A stretch of 64,000 bases of DNA from assembly GCF_023806485.1 (NCBI RefSeq), contig NZ_JAMSLR010000002.1:186001-250000 (forward strand), in the 5' to 3' direction. Below are positions 11,630 to 20,022 of this stretch, one piece after another. This DNA comes from Thermalbibacter longus. Its GTDB lineage: Bacteria > Chloroflexota > Chloroflexia > Thermomicrobiales > Thermomicrobiaceae. Each line of letters opens with the position of its first letter. The first letter of the stretch is position 1. The notes under the pieces are model-generated. The model was given only the letters and a program-made list of their open reading frames with translations. It was not told the origin of the DNA and did no database searches. The translations under genes and the position numbers were made by a program.

Positions 11630-12514
11630 CTACGACCGCCGGAGCTCGCCGCGCCGCTCCAGGAACGCTTCTACCTCCGCTCGAGTCGGCACGGCCTCCG
11701 GCCCGAGCCCCTGGATGCGCAGCGCGGCTGCCGCGGAAGCCATCCGCGCAGCGAACGATACTGGCTCGCGCTCGGCGCGGAGCAGGAACAGCACGGCCGC
11801 GAACACATCGCCTGCGCCCAGATCGTTTTGGACGGGGACAGGGTAGGCCGGGACCTCGAACGATCGACCACGGTCGATAATCTGGGCGCCGTCGGCTCCT
11901 CTGGTGATCGCGACCAGACCGCGCGTACCCACCGCCTCGATCTCGTCGCGCGCCAGTGTATGCTCGGCAGAGCTCAACACCATCCCGTCGATCCGGCTGA
12001 GCAACTCCAGCGGCAGCCGCAACTGGGTCAGCCTTACTCGTCCCTCGTGCCCGCGCGGCCACTGCCGCATCCATCCCTGTGGCGTGACTCCCAGGTAGCT
12101 GGGATTGAGCCGGCTTGCCTGGCGCGGCTCGATCTCCTGTGCTACCGGTGCCAGATGGATGACCCGTGACGAGCGCCAGTGCGGTGGTAGCCCGTTCAGG
12201 TCGATCGGGCCTGCCCAGGCGTGGATCGTCTGCTCCCGGCGGCCCGCGACCGTCCGGTTGGTAAAGACGGTCGCCGACTGGGCATCCTGGACGATGAGCG
12301 CGATCTCGCGGGCGTAGCGAGCCAGATCCTCCGCGACGTCAGGGCCATACCGCTCGAAGTTGCCGCGCGTGAGGACGGCGGCGCTCAGCCCGAAGCGCGC
12401 GGCCGTGAGGGCTGCGTACAGCGCGGTACCGCCCAGAACCGGACGGCCGTCGGGGTACAGATCGACGGTCACATGCCCGATGGCCAGGTACTCAGGTACG
12501 AGCTGGGTCAGCAT
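11630..12514 (-). CDS. PfkB-family carbohydrate kinase
   Basis: Ribokinase-like sugar/nucleoside kinase of 294 residues, predicted cytoplasmic. N-terminal GHVTVDLYPDGRPVLGGTALYAA matches the PfkB substrate-binding start. The C-terminal signature NDLGAGDVFAAVLFLL contains the GAGD anion hole and catalytic Asp; the usual DTxGAGD reads NDLGAGD here. Substrate cannot be assigned from motifs. It is shorter on the lid side than ribokinase. It starts 98 bases downstream of jag on the same strand, so it may be the last gene of the rpmH-jag transcript, but the gap leaves room for its own promoter. Confidence 0.85.
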   Translation of the reverse strand: MLTQLVPEYLAIGHVTVDLYPDGRPVLGGTALYAALTAARFGLSAAVLTRGNFERYGPDVAEDLARYAREIALIVQDAQSATVFTNRTVAGRREQTIHAWAGPIDLNGLPPHWRSSRVIHLAPVAQEIEPRQASRLNPSYLGVTPQGWMRQWPRGHEGRVRLTQLRLPLELLSRIDGMVLSSAEHTLARDEIEAVGTRGLVAITRGADGAQIIDRGRSFEVPAYPVPVQNDLGAGDVFAAVLFLLRAEREPVSFAARMASAAAALRIQGLGPEAVPTRAEVEAFLERRGELRRS

Positions 12515-12612
12515 CAGTGCATCCTGTCCCCAGGCAGCGGGACGAGCATCGTCCCGAGGCCGGAGTTCGGGCGTGCTCGCCGCTCGGTCGGAGCGAGCCG
12601 GCGACCGGATCT

Positions 12613-13311
12613 CTACTGGCGCGGATACACGGTCACGCGACGCTGCTCGCCTTCGCCGCTGCTCTGGGTCGTCACGTCCGGGTGATCGCGCAGCACGACA
12701 TGGACGACCCGGCGCTCGCTCGCCGGCATCGGTTCGAGCGTGATCGGCCGGCGGCTGCGCGCCACCTGGCGAGCTACCCGCTGAGCCAGGTTGATCAGCG
12801 ATTCCTCTCGCCGGCTCCGGTACCCCTCGACATCGAGGATCACGCGAGTCCAGGTCGGCAGCCGGCGGTTGACCAGGACGTTGACCATGTACTGGAGTTG
12901 GGCCAGATGCTCGCCGCGGCGACCGATCAGCATGCCGGCGTGTGGCCCGAAGATGTCGATGAAGACCGTCGGCGGGTCGTTGGGACCGAGTTCGATGACC
13001 GACGGGTTATCGACGGCGACGACTTCGCAATTGGAGAAGCCCATTGCCGCGAGGAGCTCGCGCACGACCTGCTTGGCGACATTCTCGGTGTCCGGGTCGA
13101 CGCGCTGGACGCTTCCCCGGGCAAGGCCGGCCGGCTCCCGCGCCGGTCGTAACGGTGTCACGCGTACCAGCGCCTCACCGCCGTAGGCGACGTTGTCGAC
13201 CAGGACTTCGACCTGAACCTGGTCGAGTGTCATGCCGAGCTGCTCGAGGGCCAAACGGACAGCTTCCTCGACGGATCTCGCTTGGATCTCGACGCCCTGC
13301 TTGCTCACCAT
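12613..13311 (-). CDS. jag: Jag/KhpB-like RNA-binding protein
   Basis: Single-stranded nucleic-acid binding protein of 232 residues, SpoIIIJ-associated (Jag/EloR/KhpB) type. It has an N-terminal Jag_N domain (about 1-55, EIQARSVEEAVRLALEQLG), a KH domain with the GxxG loop LIGRRGEHL (near 142) and a C-terminal R3H domain with SLINLAQRVARQVARSRRP and EPMPASERRVVHVVL. Family members regulate envelope growth and bind RNA together with KhpA. It follows yidC by 39 bases, the usual partner in Gram-positive and Chloroflexota genomes. Confidence 0.92.
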   Translation of the reverse strand: MVSKQGVEIQARSVEEAVRLALEQLGMTLDQVQVEVLVDNVAYGGEALVRVTPLRPAREPAGLARGSVQRVDPDTENVAKQVVRELLAAMGFSNCEVVAVDNPSVIELGPNDPPTVFIDIFGPHAGMLIGRRGEHLAQLQYMVNVLVNRRLPTWTRVILDVEGYRSRREESLINLAQRVARQVARSRRPITLEPMPASERRVVHVVLRDHPDVTTQSSGEGEQRRVTVYPRQ

Positions 13312-13350
13312 GCTCGCGCGCCTGCCTTCCTGCGGCCGGCGGGCCGACCC

Positions 13351-14328
13351 TCAGTTCCCCTGTGCCGACGGCTTCCGCTTGGAGGATCGGGTTCGCCGTG
13401 GCACGAGCGCGGCCGGATCGGGAGGGGGTGGGGGTGTCTCGGCCGGGCGCCCGTCCTTCCTCGCACGAGCCGGCTCCTTGCGCGTCTCGGATGCCGCCTC
13501 CGGTCGCTGGGTGGCCCGCTGCTCCACCTGCTGGATCTGTCGCTCGATATGCTTGTTCAGGCGACCGAACAGCCCGCGCGAGGCCGCCTGTCGCTGCGCC
13601 TCACGCTTGGCCGGATCCAGGTACCCGAGCCGCCGGTGCTCCGGCAGGTCGGGGAGGAAGGGGAACCAATCGAGCATCGCGCCCCAGCCGGTGATGAGCC
13701 ACTGCTGAACGACGCTGTAGAGCGCGGAGACCACCCAGTAGAGCACCGGGCCGGCCGCGAAGTTCCAGCCGAAAATGACCACCATGAGCGGCATGAACAT
13801 CATCATGGTGTACATCATCTGCTGCTGCGGGTCCTGGAATTTGCCCTGACCGGCCGGCCGGGTCATCCGCGTCTGGACGAACTGGAAGACCCCGGCGAGG
13901 ATCGGCAGGATATGCAGCGGATCGGGCTGGGCCAGGTTCGGGATCCAGAGAAAGCCGTTGCTCCAGCTTCCGCCGTCGTGAGTCGACAGGTTACGAATGG
14001 CGAAGTAGAGGCCGAAGAAGATCGGGATCTGCAAGAGTACCGGCAAGCAGCCCGACATCGGATTGATGCCGTACTCCTGGTAGAGCTTCATCGTCTCGGC
14101 TGAGAGCCGCTGCCGATCCTGCCCGTACTTCTTCTGCAATTCGCGAATTTTCGGCTGCAGCTCCTGCATCATGGCCGTCGAGCGCACCGACTTGATGGTC
14201 AGTGGGAGCAAGAGCGTTTTGATCAGGATCGTGAAGAGGATAATGGCAATGCCGGAACTACCGGTATGACCGGCTGTCCAGGCTAATCCCCACTCGATGA
14301 GGTTGACGAACTGATCCCAGATAACCAA
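13351..14328 (-). CDS. yidC: Membrane protein insertase YidC/Oxa1
   Basis: Insertase of 325 residues that places Sec-dependent and independent proteins in the membrane. The Oxa1 core (about 25-240) has five hydrophobic segments with the expected IKTLLLPLTIKSV and PMSGCLPVLLQIPIFFGLY signatures. There is no large periplasmic P1 domain and no lipoprotein cysteine. The last 90 residues are basic and proline-rich (AETPPPPPDPAAL), like tails that contact ribosomes. The start is TTG at 14328, supported by GAGGAGG seven bases upstream; no better start is in frame. Confidence 0.95.
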   Translation of the reverse strand: MVIWDQFVNLIEWGLAWTAGHTGSSGIAIILFTILIKTLLLPLTIKSVRSTAMMQELQPKIRELQKKYGQDRQRLSAETMKLYQEYGINPMSGCLPVLLQIPIFFGLYFAIRNLSTHDGGSWSNGFLWIPNLAQPDPLHILPILAGVFQFVQTRMTRPAGQGKFQDPQQQMMYTMMMFMPLMVVIFGWNFAAGPVLYWVVSALYSVVQQWLITGWGAMLDWFPFLPDLPEHRRLGYLDPAKREAQRQAASRGLFGRLNKHIERQIQQVEQRATQRPEAASETRKEPARARKDGRPAETPPPPPDPAALVPRRTRSSKRKPSAQGN

Positions 14329-14397
14329 GCGCGTGCCTCCTCAGGCGGTTCGGGCGTGATGCGCTCGTAGCCGGAAGTTCGGCGGAAGCGGGCTAGG

Positions 14398-14610
14398 TCA
14401 CTCGACCGGGTCGTACCCTCCCCGGTTGAACGGGTTGCACCGCAAGATCCGCCAGGCCGTCTTGGCCCCGCCCCTGATGATACCGTACTTGGCAATGGCC
14501 TGATACCCGTACTCCGAGCAGGTCGGGTAGAAGCGACAGGACGGCGGGAACAGCGGTGAGATGAAGATCTGGTAGAAGCGGATGGCCTTGAGCGCGACGG
14601 ACGTGAGCAT
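14398..14610 (-). CDS. yidD: Membrane protein insertion efficiency factor YidD
   Basis: Small membrane-associated protein of 70 residues that assists YidC-dependent insertion. It has the complete family signature: [33 protein letters not shown], then [23 protein letters not shown]. The three conserved cysteines of CRFYPTCS and LRCNPF are present. The ATG overlaps the rnpA stop codon by one base (TGATG), so translation is coupled. Confidence 0.95.
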
Positions 14611-15008
14611 CAGCGGTGGCCTCCCGGACGGGAAACCGGTGGTTTCTCCTGAGCGATCGAGGTCGTCTCGATCAAGCCAGCGCGGCGAACGAGCTCGTGC
14701 ACGCAGCCAGCAACCTGATGATACGACACCGAAGGCTCAGCCAGCCGGCCGCGCGCGATCAGAACCAGGTCGTAGCCCTGGCGGAGCTGCGGGTGGAGTC
14801 GACGCACCACCTCGCGCAGCCAGCGCTTGACCCGGTTGCGGCGCACTGCCTTGCCCACGCGCCGGCCGACGGCGAAGCCATAGCGGTTGTGCTCGAGGCC
14901 GTTCGGCCGGTACGCGAGCACTACCAGCGCACCGCTCACCGATCGCCCGCGCTTGCGAACGATCTCGAAGTCGGTGCTGCGACGCAGCCGCAGCTTGCGG
15001 GCGATCAT
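14610..15008 (-). CDS. rnpA: Ribonuclease P protein component
   Basis: Basic protein subunit of RNase P, 132 residues, which helps the catalytic RNA trim tRNA 5' leaders. It begins [20 protein letters not shown] and contains the RNR signature as [18 protein letters not shown], then [11 protein letters not shown]. It starts 13 bases after rpmH and runs into yidD. The RNA subunit gene (rnpB) was not found in the window. Confidence 0.95.
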
Positions 15009-15021
15009 GCGGGTGGCCTGG

Positions 15022-15189
15022 CTACTTCTTGATGGTCGGCTTCTTCTCGTCGGAGACGGTCAGCTTCCAGCGTCCCTTGCGCCGCCGCGCGGCGAGGATA
15101 CGCCGTCCGGCCTTGGTGCTCATGCGCTTGAGGAAGCCGTGCTCCCGCTTGCGAGGGATACGCTTGGGCTGGTACGTCCGCTTCGGCAC
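15022..15189 (-). CDS. rpmH: Ribosomal protein bL34
   Basis: A 55-residue, very basic 50S ribosomal protein. It starts [20 protein letters not shown] and continues [19 protein letters not shown], the conserved L34 core, with a slightly longer C-terminus ([15 protein letters not shown]). The start is GTG at 15189 with GAGGCGG five bases upstream. A near-consensus promoter lies at 15268-15296 and a hairpin with a U run in the leader. First gene of rpmH-rnpA-yidD-yidC-jag. Confidence 0.93.
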
Positions 15190-15221
15190 GGTATCCGCCT
15201 CTCGTCCTCACGCTCCCGGTC

Positions 15222-15257
15222 AAAAAAATGCCCGCGCGGCCAGCGCTCCGGCCGCTA
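15222..15257 (-). terminator. Hairpin plus U tract in the rpmH leader (possible attenuator)
   Basis: On the transcript, GCGGCC pairs with GGCCGC around an 8-base loop. GCGGGCA and then seven uridines (the A run at 15222-15228 on the plus strand) follow. It lies between the predicted start point (about 15261) and the rpmH GTG, so it would act on rpmH itself. The seven-base gap between stem and U tract weakens the call. Confidence 0.4.
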
Positions 15258-15267
15258 CGGCAGGCCA

Positions 15268-15296
15268 AGTATACGGCCGGGCAGGTTGGCTGTCAA
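15268..15296 (-). promoter_or_regulatory. Strong sigma-70 type promoter of rpmH operon
   Basis: Minus-strand TTGACA (15291-15296), a 17-base spacer and TATACT (15268-15273): five to six matches in each hexamer. It lies 79 bases before the rpmH start codon and should drive rpmH-rnpA-yidD-yidC-jag. Confidence 0.8.
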
Positions 15297-15527
15297 CACC
15301 GGCCGGGAGCGGTTCCTCCCCTCCCGTCAATATCGTTCCCGCAAGAGGAGGCGTCATCACCTCGCCTAAGGGAGACGCGCCGGCAGCGCCAGCGCACGCA
15401 TTCCCACCGAGGAGCCACGGCGGCGGTCGCGGGCAGGGCGTCCTCGCCGCATACTTGAGACGATCTGTGAGGACCCGACATCGACCGGCATCTTCCGCCG
15501 TGGCGATCCTCACCAGGAGCTCGGGAC

Positions 15528-16574
15528 ATGACCGCGCGCTTCGTCAACCTGGCTATCCTGCTCTTGCTTACGCTGGAGTTGGCAAGCGGTTTCGGCAGCT
15601 TCCTGGTCGGGCAGCCCAGTGGCCAGTGGGTGCTCTGGCTGCACCGTGCCGGCGGGTGGGGGCTGGTCTGCCTGCTCTTCTGGAAGTGGGGTATCGTGGT
15701 TCGCTCCTACCGCCGGCACGGGCTGACGCCTGGGACAGTCTTCTCCGCGCTGGTGGCGGCTGTGTTCCTCGTATCTCTGGGATCTGGTCTGCTCTGGGCG
15801 ACGACGGGCCTGCCGCGCCTTAGCGTGCTGTTCGTCGGGGACTGGACCGGTCTCAGCCTGCACGTTGCCATCTCGCTGCTGTTGGTTCCGTTGGTCGCGC
15901 TGCATGCTGTGATGCGCTGGCCGCGCCCGCGCCGGGTCGACCTGGCGAGCCGCCGGGCCGCGCTGCGCTACCTAGGCCTGCTGGCTGCCGGCCTGGTGCT
16001 CTGGCGGGCGCAGGAGGCCGTCGCGGTTGCCGCCAGGTTCTCTGGCGCTAGGCGACGCTTCACCGGCTCACGCGAGGAAGCCAGCTTCCAGGGGAACGCC
16101 CACCCGGTCACGAACTGGCTGAGCGATCCCGTCTTGCGCCTAGAACCCGCGGCTTGGCGACTGCGCGTCTCTGGTCACGTCGAGCGCGAGCTGGTGCTCT
16201 CCTATGAAGACATCCTGGCGCTGCGCGCTGGCTCCCGCCAGGCGCTGCTCGACTGCACCGGCGGCTGGTACACGGTGCAGCGCTGGTCAGGCGTGCCGGT
16301 CGTGGCTCTGCTGGAACGCGCGGGGGTCAGGGAAGGAGCGCGCTGCCTGATCACGCGCTCGGCGACCGGCTACAGCCGCCGCTTCCCGCTCGCCCGCGCC
16401 GGTGAGCTGCTGCTGGCGACCCACGTGGAGGGGGAACCGCTCTCCGCCGCGCATGGCGCTCCGGCCCGGCTGGTGGCGCCGGGCTACCGGGGCTACTGCT
16501 GGGTCAAGTGGGTGGTGGAGCTGGAGGTGAGCCGGGAGCCGGCCTGGCTGCAAGCGCCGCTGCCGCTCCAGTAG
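15528..16574 (+). CDS. Membrane cytochrome-like / molybdopterin oxidoreductase fusion (MsrP/SUOX type)
   Basis: 348 residues in two parts. Residues 1-131 carry four hydrophobic segments with histidines H39, H112 and H126 placed as in cytochrome-b561-like or MsrQ-like haem proteins. Residues about 190-340 form a sulfite-oxidase-fold molybdopterin domain. Its ligand is Cys243 in LLDCTGGWYT, followed by RWSGVPVVALLERAGV and PGYRGYCWVKWVVELE. Between them SRRAALRYLGLLAAGLVLW (141-159) looks like a twin-arginine signal kept inside the chain. A one-protein version of the MsrP/MsrQ pair is the best reading; the substrate is unknown. It is transcribed divergently from rpmH, and moeA at 60.9 kb could supply cofactor. 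Confidence 0.8.
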   Translation: MTARFVNLAILLLLTLELASGFGSFLVGQPSGQWVLWLHRAGGWGLVCLLFWKWGIVVRSYRRHGLTPGTVFSALVAAVFLVSLGSGLLWATTGLPRLSVLFVGDWTGLSLHVAISLLLVPLVALHAVMRWPRPRRVDLASRRAALRYLGLLAAGLVLWRAQEAVAVAARFSGARRRFTGSREEASFQGNAHPVTNWLSDPVLRLEPAAWRLRVSGHVERELVLSYEDILALRAGSRQALLDCTGGWYTVQRWSGVPVVALLERAGVREGARCLITRSATGYSRRFPLARAGELLLATHVEGEPLSAAHGAPARLVAPGYRGYCWVKWVVELEVSREPAWLQAPLPLQ

Positions 16575-16580
16575 CGATGA

Positions 16581-18134
16581 TCAGCCCTCGATCAGGCTCT
16601 GGCCGGTCATCTCCTCCGGCTGCGGGAGCCCGAGGATCTGTAGCACCGTCGGCGCGACGTCCGCGAGCCGCCCGCCGGCGCGCAGCCGGGTGTGTCGATA
16701 GGGTGAGTCGTCCGGCGCCAGGACCACGAAGGGCACTGGGTTCTTGGTGTGCGCCGTCCAGACCTCGTTCGTGCTGGGGATCAGCATCTCGTCGGCATTG
16801 CCGTGGTCAGCGGTGACGATGGCCACTCCGCCACGTCCCAGGGTCGCTTGGACGATCCGACCCAGGCACTCGTCCACGCACTCGACGGCACGGACAGCGG
16901 CTTCGAAGACTCCCGTGTGTCCCACCATGTCGGGATTGGCGTAGTTGATCAACACGAACGCGTAGCGCCCGCTATCGATCGCTGCGAGTGCGGCGTCGGT
17001 CACGCCCGGCGCGCTCATCTCCGGCTTGAGGTCGTAGGTGGGCACCTTCGGGGAGGGCACAAGCTTGCGGTCCTCGCCGGGGAAGGGCTCCTCGCGTCCA
17101 CCGTTGAAGAAGTAGGTGACGTGGGCATACTTCTCGGTCTCGGCGGTGTGGAACTGGCGCAGGCCAGCCTCGCTCAGGACTTCGGCCAGCGGCCGGCGCA
17201 CGTTCTCGGTCGGGAAGGCCACCAGCACCGGGAAGTCGGGCTCGTACTCGGCCATGGTCACCATCAGCAGATCGCGCGGGAAGCGGCAGCGCTCGAAAGC
17301 CGTAAAGCTGGGATCGGTGAGCGCCTGCGTGAGCTGGCGAGCGCGATCGGCTCTGAAGTTGAAGAAGACCACGGCGTCGCCGTCGGCGATCGGCCCGATG
17401 GGCTGTCCGTCTGAGCCCGTAATGACGACCGGGTCGATGAACTCGTCGGTCACATCGCGCGCGTACGACTGCTGGATCGCGGCGACCGGGTCGGTTGCGG
17501 TCGGTCCCTGGCCGCAGACGATGGCGTCGTAGGCGCGCTTGGTGCGGTCCCAGCGCTTGTCTCGATCCATAGCGTAGTAGCGCCCGGAGATGCTCGCGAC
17601 GTGGCCGGTGCCGAGCTCGTCCATGCGCGCGAGTAGCCGGCGCATGAACTCGAGGCCCGAGGTCGGCTCGGTGTCGCGCCCGTCGGTGAAGGCATGGACA
17701 GCGACGCGCTCGAGCCGGCGACGGGCGGCCAGCTCGAGGAGCGCCTCCAGGTGCCGCTGGTGGCTGTGGACGCCGCCGTCACCGAGGAGCCCGAGCAGGT
17801 GAAGTGTCCGGCCGGGCTGGCTCGCCCGCTCGACCGCGGCCAGCAGTGCCGAGTTCTCGAAGAAGCTCCCGTCCTCGATCGCTAGGTCGATCCGGGTGAT
17901 GAGCTGGTAGACGATCCGGCCGGCCCCGAGGTTGAGGTGGCCGACCTCGGAGTTGCCCATCTGTCCGTCGGGGAGCCCGACGTCGCGGCCAGAGCAGCGG
18001 AGGGTCGTCATAGGGTAGCTGGCCTGGAGTCGATCCATAACCGGCGTGCTGGCGGCCAGGATGGCATTGCCAGGGTAATCCGGCCCGATAGCCCAGCCGT
18101 CGAGGATCACCAGCACGACTGTCGAGGGTGCCAC
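16581..18134 (-). CDS. gpmI: 2,3-bisphosphoglycerate-independent phosphoglycerate mutase
   Basis: Glycolytic/gluconeogenic enzyme interconverting 3- and 2-phosphoglycerate, 517 residues, normal family length. It has metal-binding LVILDGWAIG at the N-terminus, the catalytic serine in GQMGNSEVGHLNLGAGR, FTDGRDTEPTSG, SISGRYYAMDRDKRWDRT, and C-terminal TADHGNADEM and AHTKNPVPF. The frame is open 327 bases further upstream, but only GTG 18134 has a ribosome site (GGAGGGAGTGGAGC) and gives the canonical N-terminus. It lies convergent with and 6 bases from the oxidoreductase gene, and has its own promoter at 18200-18228. Confidence 0.96.
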   Translation of the reverse strand: MAPSTVVLVILDGWAIGPDYPGNAILAASTPVMDRLQASYPMTTLRCSGRDVGLPDGQMGNSEVGHLNLGAGRIVYQLITRIDLAIEDGSFFENSALLAAVERASQPGRTLHLLGLLGDGGVHSHQRHLEALLELAARRRLERVAVHAFTDGRDTEPTSGLEFMRRLLARMDELGTGHVASISGRYYAMDRDKRWDRTKRAYDAIVCGQGPTATDPVAAIQQSYARDVTDEFIDPVVITGSDGQPIGPIADGDAVVFFNFRADRARQLTQALTDPSFTAFERCRFPRDLLMVTMAEYEPDFPVLVAFPTENVRRPLAEVLSEAGLRQFHTAETEKYAHVTYFFNGGREEPFPGEDRKLVPSPKVPTYDLKPEMSAPGVTDAALAAIDSGRYAFVLINYANPDMVGHTGVFEAAVRAVECVDECLGRIVQATLGRGGVAIVTADHGNADEMLIPSTNEVWTAHTKNPVPFVVLAPDDSPYRHTRLRAGGRLADVAPTVLQILGLPQPEEMTGQSLIEG

Positions 18135-18199
18135 GCTCCACTCCCTCCGCGTTTCGATACCGCGTGCCCGGGCTGTGCCAGGCGCACCGGCGTTGTCTG

Positions 18200-18228
18200 A
18201 TAGTAGTGGTGGCGCAGCCCTGACGCAA
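18200..18228 (-). promoter_or_regulatory. Putative gpmI promoter
   Basis: Minus-strand TTGCGT (18223-18228), a 17-base spacer and TACTAT (18200-18205), 65 bases before the gpmI GTG. It lies in the divergent gpmI-ilvD region; on the plus strand a TACAAT (18266-18271) is a candidate -10 for ilvD. Confidence 0.55.
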
Positions 18229-18321
18229 CCTGAGCCGAGCGGGTCTTTCAGCCTCGGACTCACGGTACAATGCCGCCAGGTGAGGCATGCCGGCGAGGTG
18301 ACGACGTAAGGAGAGGCTCGA

Positions 18322-19992
18322 ATGCGCAGCGAGTTGATCACCCACGGAATCGAGCGAGCGCCGGCCCGGGCGATGCTCCGGGCGGTCGGGTTCACCGACG
18401 AGGACTTCGAAAAGCCGATCGTCGCCATCGCCAATACCTGGACTGACGCGATGCCGTGCAACTATCACCTGCGGGAGCTGGCCCAGCACCTGCGCGAGGG
18501 GATCCGCGAGGCGGGCGGCGTTCCGGTCGAGTTCAACACGGTGGCGGTCAACGATGCCATCGGCATGGGTACGCAGGCGATGAAAGCCTCACTGATCAGC
18601 CGGGAGGTCATCGCCGACTCGATCGAGCTCATGGCGCACGGGTACCAGTTCGACGCTGTTGTCGCGCTCGTCTCCTGCGACAAGACGATCCCCGGCGGAG
18701 CGATGGGGGTCATCCGTGCTGGCGTCCCGGCGATGGTGCTCTACGGCGGGTCGATCGCCCCGGGCCAGTGGGGCGGGCGCGAGCTGACGATCGTCGAGGT
18801 CTTCGAGGCCGTCGGTGCCTACGCCGCGGGGAAGATCAGCTACGAGGAGCTGCGCGAGATCGAGCGGCACGCGATCCCCGGGCCGGGGGCCTGCGGCGGC
18901 CAGTACACCGCGAACACGATGGCCATCGCGCTCGAGGTGCTCGGTCTGTCGCCGATGGGATACAACGCGATCCCGGCGGTCGCGCCGGAGAAGGCCGAGG
19001 CGACCCGCGAGGCCGGACGCCGGTTCATGGAGGTTGTGCGGGCCGGGCGCACGCCGAAGCAGTTCTTGACCAAATCGTCCTTCCACAACGCCATCGCGGC
19101 AGTGGCGGCGACCGGCGGCTCGACCAACGCTGTGTTGCACTTGATCGCGATCGCCCATGAAGTCGGGATCGAGCTGAAGCTGGAGGAGTTCGACGAGATC
19201 AGCCGCCGCACGCCAGTGATCGCCGACATGAAGCCGTGGGGCAAATACGTGGCCTGGAGCCTCTACAAGGCCGGCGGCAGCAAGCTAGTGACCAAGCGGC
19301 TGCTCGATGCCGGGCTCGTCGATGGCTCGACCGTTACCGTGACCGGCGAGACGTTGGCCCAGACGGTGGCCGACGCGACGGAGGCTCCCGGCCAGCCGGT
19401 GGTCTACGATCCGGCCAAACCGCTCAAGCCGCACGGGGGACTGGTCATCCTGCGCGGTTCGCTCGCGCCGGAGGGCGCTGTGCTCAAGCTCGCCGGCACC
19501 GAGCAAACGTACTTCCGTGGCCCGGCTCGCGTCTTCGACGCCGAGGAAGACGCGCTACGGGCCGTGCTCGACCGGCAGATCAAGCCGGGCGATGTCGTCC
19601 TCATCCGCTACGAGGGGCCGAAGGGTGGGCCGGGGATGCGGGAGATGCTCAGCGTGACCGCGGCGCTGGTCGGCGAAGGGTTGGGGCCAAAGGTGGCGCT
19701 GGTGACCGACGGCCGCTTCTCCGGTGGTACCAAGGGCTTGATGATCGGCCACGTTGCGCCGGAAGCTCCGCTGGGCGGACCGATCGCGCTGGTTCGCGAC
19801 GGCGACACGATCACGATCGATATCGAGAAGCGGCGGCTCGACCTCGAGGTGCCGGACGCCGAGCTAGCCGAGCGCCGCGCGGGCTGGACTCCTCCGCCAC
19901 CGCGGTTCACCCACGGCGTGTTCGCGCGCTATGCCGCGCTGGTCAGCTCGGCATCCGAGGGGGCAATACTGCGGACGCCGTCCTGGGTGTGA
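18322..19992 (+). CDS. ilvD: Dihydroxy-acid dehydratase
   Basis: Iron-sulfur enzyme that dehydrates 2,3-dihydroxy-isovalerate and -methylvalerate in valine/isoleucine synthesis; 556 residues, normal length. Visible signatures are FTDEDFEKPIVAIANTW near the N-terminus, VSCDKTIPGGAMG with cluster-ligand Cys, PGPGACGGQYTANTMA with a second Cys, AATGGSTNAVLHLIAIA, and near the C-terminus DGRFSGGTKGLMIGHVAPEA. AAGGAG stands eight bases before the ATG. It stands alone; no other branched-chain gene is next to it. A TACAAT -10 element lies at 18266-18271 with a weak -35. Confidence 0.97.
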   Translation: MRSELITHGIERAPARAMLRAVGFTDEDFEKPIVAIANTWTDAMPCNYHLRELAQHLREGIREAGGVPVEFNTVAVNDAIGMGTQAMKASLISREVIADSIELMAHGYQFDAVVALVSCDKTIPGGAMGVIRAGVPAMVLYGGSIAPGQWGGRELTIVEVFEAVGAYAAGKISYEELREIERHAIPGPGACGGQYTANTMAIALEVLGLSPMGYNAIPAVAPEKAEATREAGRRFMEVVRAGRTPKQFLTKSSFHNAIAAVAATGGSTNAVLHLIAIAHEVGIELKLEEFDEISRRTPVIADMKPWGKYVAWSLYKAGGSKLVTKRLLDAGLVDGSTVTVTGETLAQTVADATEAPGQPVVYDPAKPLKPHGGLVILRGSLAPEGAVLKLAGTEQTYFRGPARVFDAEEDALRAVLDRQIKPGDVVLIRYEGPKGGPGMREMLSVTAALVGEGLGPKVALVTDGRFSGGTKGLMIGHVAPEAPLGGPIALVRDGDTITIDIEKRRLDLEVPDAELAERRAGWTPPPPRFTHGVFARYAALVSSASEGAILRTPSWV

Positions 19993-20022
19993 GCGCAAGC
20001 CAGGCACGCTAGCTGCCATCTT

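Follow-up and report, generated by a model that had tools for sequence, protein, structure and literature searches.

The question raised by this locus is whether a protein that joins a cytochrome-like membrane part to a molybdopterin (MoCo) domain of the sulfite oxidase fold is a fused form of the two-protein MsrPQ system, as the first-pass annotation had read it, or an enzyme of another kind. The gene occupies positions 15528–16574 of the window (the whole 64 000-nucleotide stretch of Thermalbibacter longus DNA analysed here) on the + strand, as do all features located below, and encodes 348 amino acids from an ATG start, with a ribosome-binding-like AGGAG (15515–15519, read from the sequence) 8 bases ahead. 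From the open reading frame, Pfam, 87 homologues and a profile match, its product is a putative one-chain haem-b/MoCo membrane oxidoreductase of the Sco3746 type. It is a solitary gene: behind it, on the opposite strand, are yidC and rnpA, a phosphoglycerate mutase gene converges on it from the front, and ilvD is also a neighbour (names from translations). An Rfam scan of positions 12000–20000 returned nothing. A pooled Pfam scan of 71 open reading frames from 13 loci found only common hydrolases, peptidases and dehydrogenases as recurrent neighbours, and no conserved neighbour gene that would point to a substrate.

Five helices and a C-terminal catalytic domain make up the predicted protein. 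In the structural model described below, TM1 (residues 3–24, 15534–15599) carries an invariant Gly21; TM2 (residues 30–64, 15615–15719) has His39 (15642–15644), a candidate outer-side haem ligand, near its outer face and Lys53 (15684–15686) near its inner face; TM3 (residues 68–92, 15729–15803) contains a near-invariant Gly87 (84/87); and TM4 (residues 108–129, 15849–15914) holds the pair His112-x13-His126. The internal twin-arginine motif S-R-R-A-A-L-R (residues 141–147, 15948–15968) leads into TM5, a putative Tat-dependent helix modelled over residues 142–168 with its core at 144–164 (15957–16019), whose mean Kyte–Doolittle (KD) hydrophobicity is 1.08, against 1.85–2.24 for TM1, TM3 and TM4. 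The MoCo domain follows at residues 203–338 (16134–16541; Pfam PF00174, Oxidored_molyb, E = 4.4e-33) and includes Cys243 (16254–16256), the predicted Mo ligand, which aligns with the CVEAW cysteine of E. coli MsrP. Positive-inside charges place the N-terminus inside, with five crossings and the MoCo domain outside. The four hydrophobic segments, the three histidines, S-R-R-A-A-L at 141–146, a hydrophobic run to about residue 159 and Cys243 had all been picked out in the first-pass annotation, and each is found at the residues it gave.

We aligned 87 homologues from Chloroflexota, Actinomycetota and haloarchaea, which span about 35–89% identity. H39, K53, H112, H126, R142, R143 and C243 are identical in 87/87, and within TM1–4 only Gly21, His39, Lys53, His112 and His126 are invariant. 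Loss of the arginine pair had been set beforehand as a refuting test, and the pair is kept throughout; Leu146 (74/87) and Arg147 (67/87) bring the motif to the full Tat consensus in the majority of the aligned sequences. The histidines were a second point to be checked, and the H39 / H112-x13-H126 arrangement has a spacing that suggests axial haem ligands, so the reading of a haem-binding membrane part was not refuted. Because H39, H112, H126, R142, R143 and C243 are identical in every homologue, the observed layout lies far above chance, and the identity of the conserved residues across the 87 homologues likewise marks it as an old and stable architecture.

The architecture itself is not new. 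It was described by Tooke et al. 2017 (eLife 6:e26577, PMC5449189), who found the family that includes Sco3746 through a search for internal twin-arginine motifs and listed relatives from actinobacteria, firmicutes, chloroflexi and euryarchaeota, with the arginine pair directly before helix 5. For Sco3746 of Streptomyces coelicolor the five helices of the membrane part and their Tat dependence were established with MBP, AmiA and Bla fusions, so that dual Sec/Tat insertion has been demonstrated by experiment for this relative (Tooke et al., 2017). With a Sco3746-like protein of Kitasatospora as a stand-in for Sco3746, the profile of the window protein gave a full-length hhalign match (E = 2.6e-27, 99.7% probability, 303 columns) in which the His, Lys, His, His and RR positions are in register. 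Because the two align over their full length, the window protein is, on sequence grounds, a member of the Sco3746 family. The idea that one chain combines a haem domain in the membrane with a MoCo domain exported by Tat, the Tat signal being kept as an inner helix, thus holds for the layout and draws on the experiments with the S. coelicolor relative, the haem content being a matter of prediction; the architecture, which the first-pass annotation took for a neat variant, was already in print in 2017.

Taken together, we consider it quite probable that the gene encodes a one-chain, membrane-anchored Mo oxidoreductase of the Sco3746 kind, with a cytochrome b-like bundle, a Tat-exported MoCo domain, an outer haem and MsrP-like chemistry. 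Helices 1–4 would be inserted by Sec to form the bundle, and the internal arginine pair would then pass helix 5, with its weak hydrophobicity, to Tat together with the folded MoCo domain, a hand-over that would therefore leave the MoCo domain outside the membrane; TatC is encoded in the genome. The Mo at Cys243 would exchange electrons with the quinone pool, or else with an inner donor, via an outer haem b on His39/His112, possibly with a second, inner-side haem on His126, for which Lys53 is the only conserved partner candidate. For the window enzyme we infer the haem content, the ligands, the direction of electron flow and the substrate alike. A protein of this kind, found in bacteria and archaea, offers a compact system in which to study how Sec hands over to Tat and how extracellular MoCo chemistry is linked to quinones.

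Searches of the sampled genomes yielded full-length relatives in three groups. They occur at 43 places in 42 of 301 genomes of Chloroflexota (Thermomicrobia, Dehalococcoidia and others), in 20 of 246 genomes of Actinomycetota as full-length matches, and relatives were found in 59 of 116 haloarchaeal genomes. Matches to the window protein in a plasmid collection cover the MoCo domain only; the same collection yielded the Kitasatospora protein.

A few further loci stand out. At one locus (L069, genome G328) an open frame runs, stop to stop, about 495 residues upstream of the five-helix MoCo enzyme; this stretch is possibly another fusion and possibly no more than an open frame. Two haloarchaeal members (G556:C15:35619-36719 and G563:C8:150931-152058) were matched in two pieces although each is one open frame, with a gap of about 70–100 bases inside the MoCo domain that is probably a lineage-specific insertion. 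Two copies from metagenome-assembled genomes (L006:6001-7044 and L011:6001-7011) each have a single in-frame stop, located in the MoCo half, while the gene is otherwise well preserved; the stops reflect either sequencing error or decay. A Rhodococcus plasmid (L118:1721-3322) encodes another MoCo protein of polytopic type, in which SRRRFL stands inside the chain after the N-terminal helices and which lacks the H-x13-K / H-x13-H signature.

One relative is encoded in two pieces. In an actinobacterium (G675, L172:1141-2605) the enzyme is specified by two overlapping genes, one for a four-helix cytochrome and one for a MoCo protein with a Tat signal. The cytochrome gene product ends in GAGTCGGATGAGTGA, and its gene is overlapped by ATGAGTGAT, the start of a 202-amino-acid protein (MSDPDAVSRRRFLIGVGAG...) whose N-terminus is a classical Tat signal and whose start is preceded by an AAGGAGG site; the overlap is ATGAGTGA, with a ribosome-binding site between the genes, and the break falls exactly between helix 4 and the arginine pair. 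As to whether this is what the fused enzyme came from, the tree nests the two-gene form among the fused proteins, at moderate support values of 88/74 and 90/86, and a later fission is therefore likelier than an ancestral state. Fission or ancestor, the pair shows that the cytochrome and Tat-MoCo halves are separable modules. The earlier suggestion of a gene fusion thus gains a relative split precisely at the Tat signal, without that relative being the favoured picture of the ancestor, and the pair provides a natural two-gene version for comparison with the one-chain enzyme.

What, then, is the membrane half? Pfam gave it no convincing match (Ni_hydr_CYTB at a weak E of 0.25 only), and we turned to structure. 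An AlphaFold2 model built on 81 sequences (pLDDT 92.5, pTM 0.85), which replaced a poor model from 18 sequences (pLDDT 70.6), has helices at residues 3–24, 30–64, 68–92, 108–129 and 142–168. Residues 1–177 of this model matched bc1 cytochrome b with Z 11.8 over 166 aligned residues, and the membrane part matched E. coli superoxide oxidase CybB (5oc0) with Z 10.8 and b6 with Z 9.5, all below the value of about 13 from which helical-bundle fold matches are considered safe. Profile searches, including those against a filtered reference set, gave no sequence link between the membrane part and cytochrome b, and the fold comparison is the sole basis of the resemblance. The modelled likeness to the bc1/b6 cytochrome b bundle is thus suggestive, not proof.

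The reading with which the locus was first annotated, a fusion of MsrP with a haem subunit of the MsrQ type, was suggested by the same division of labour, the three histidines and the same catalytic-domain fold, and Tooke and colleagues, who compared MsrP/MsrQ with the Sco3746 family, called MsrPQ distant homologues on separate polypeptides. Yet hhalign found no profile similarity to E. coli MsrQ (0.1%, with MsrQ as a single-sequence profile), the window protein has no Ferric_reduct (PF01794) match, its bundle has four helices and not six, and the helix directions, judged from topology, would be opposite to those of the His helices in the FRD/NOX type. Nor does the window genome hold any Ferric_reduct gene. 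We rejected a fused MsrQ on the lack of a PF01794 match in protein or genome and the empty MsrQ comparison, and regard it as very improbable; the model, too, resembles a cytochrome b bundle instead. That NOX/FRD folds do not appear in the list of structural matches was given no weight in this. The MsrP half of the label survives as far as the sulfite oxidase fold and no further: E. coli MsrP aligns with the window protein in the catalytic domain only, and the NCBIfam MsrP model, whose cut-off is 207 bits, scores 45.6.

The chemistry of the Sco3746-type enzyme is a separate matter. Most likely it is an MsrP-like reduction, in which electrons would flow outward to a substrate in oxidised form, for instance a sulfoxide. 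A quinone-reducing dehydrogenase of sulfite or a related sulfur compound, with electrons flowing inward, would agree with the fact that SorA and SoxC are the closest solved catalytic domains; residues 182–348 of the model match the sulfite dehydrogenase SorA (2blf) with Z 21.6 and MsrP (1xdq) with Z 17.2. We nonetheless consider such a dehydrogenase unlikely. At the position of the SorA active-site Tyr (LAYSMNG) the alignment to SorA places Thr298 (16419–16421; Thr in 83/87), the dimerisation domain is absent, the chain ending at residue 348 with no further domain in Pfam, the protein scores far under the SorA, SorT and SoxC cut-offs, and the window genome has other genes of the sulfite oxidase type. 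It is because of the threonine and the missing dimerisation domain that MsrP-like reduction appears more likely than sulfite oxidation. The Mo-ligand motif, CVEGW in the Sco3746-type branch vs CVEAW in MsrP, was also counted for MsrP-like chemistry.

Two further sulfite-oxidase-family genes lie on contig C45 of the window genome. One encodes a protein of 399 amino acids without an obvious membrane part. The other encodes 537 amino acids that begin with several helices and include an internal SRRAFL motif and a MoCo domain, and is by its sequence a candidate for another dual Sec/Tat type.

The residue that sets the membrane part apart is Lys53. In cytochrome b, two helices (B and D) each carry H-x13-H; H39-x13-K53 and H112-x13-H126 mirror this pair, with the lysine at the inner, second ligand position of helix B. 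Lysine is also present in 31/31 readable sequences of the distant Sco3746-type branch, and elsewhere in TM1–4 of the aligned homologues it fills only 5 of 7,221 cells. Four histidines were proposed as haem ligands in the Sco3746 family, one of them not conserved, with His alone considered, and the invariant Lys is apparently not mentioned (Tooke et al., 2017); its place at the second-ligand site of cytochrome b appears to be previously unremarked. In R. capsulatus bc1, replacing His by Lys at the bH or bL ligands gave low-spin functional haems, and a natural Lys-ligated haem in an integral membrane protein was at that time unknown, yet expected (Pintscher et al. 2016; PMC4807273). No later natural case of a His-Lys haem in a membrane protein was found in the literature searched, though this does not prove that none exists.

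Does Lys53, then, hold a haem? A two-haem enzyme with its inner haem on His126/Lys53 would be the first natural case of a haem b held by His and Lys within a bundle of membrane helices, present in both branches, in two bacterial phyla and in haloarchaea, and we hold it to be a real possibility, if somewhat short of an even chance. Its case lies in the lysine being the sole invariant residue of TM1–4 besides Gly21 and the three histidines, in the exact H-x13-K opposite H-x13-H, in the near absence of Lys elsewhere in these helices and in the working engineered haems. Moreover, helix 1 of the Sco3746-type branch shows G-x13-G, as does helix A of cytochrome b, and the inner one of these glycines would point towards the inner haem. 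In the window branch, however, the inner helix-1 position (residue 7) is Asn/Asp, which could form a salt bridge with Lys53. This fits a one-haem enzyme, to which we give slightly less credence, with haem on His39/His112 only and with Lys53, His126 and Asn/Asp7 as an inner-side site for quinone or proton transfer. Quinone sites such as Qi of bc1 typically have Lys, His and Asp/Asn on the inner side, and the outer haem site is complete (Gly21, Gly87 and two His) where the inner one is short of a histidine. Against a single haem, residue 7 is replaced by Gly in the Sco3746-type branch with K and H still invariant, and MsrQ, likewise with three conserved histidines, reportedly carries two haems. 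Either way, the invariant lysine is a useful new point that is easy to test by spectroscopy, and the family offers a concrete, widespread and small candidate for the natural His-Lys membrane haem predicted by Pintscher and colleagues.

Set beside known systems, the enzyme shares the catalytic-domain fold of SorA and SoxC, which differ in being soluble, with a dimerisation domain and, in SorA, that active-site Tyr. Like CybB and the b561/Ni-hydrogenase cytochrome b group, it would have a four-helix haem bundle. CybB takes its inner haem ligand from helix 1; the window protein has no His there. With bc1/b6f cytochrome b it would, on the model, have the four-helix bundle in common; it shows the H-x13-H spacing and conserved Gly that would face the haems, and it differs in pairing H-x13-K with H-x13-H in place of two H-x13-H, in lacking detected sequence similarity and in being fused to a MoCo domain. 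MsrPQ of E. coli has the same MoCo fold, the Mo-ligand Cys and a membrane-bound haem protein that supplies an enzyme exported by Tat, but consists of two proteins, of which MsrP is soluble with an N-terminal Tat signal, where the window motif is internal, and MsrQ is a six-helix FRD/NOX-type protein without detectable similarity to the window membrane part. Rv0218 of M. tuberculosis is alike by description only, with several transmembrane segments and a C-terminal molybdopterin domain (PMC5800017). With the Sco3746 family the window protein shares five helices, an N-terminus inside, the arginine pair directly before helix 5, a C-terminal MoCo domain and three conserved histidines; it falls in a shorter, separate branch (100/100 support in the tree), and its helix 5 has the low hydrophobicity that is needed for release from Sec (Tooke et al., 2017).
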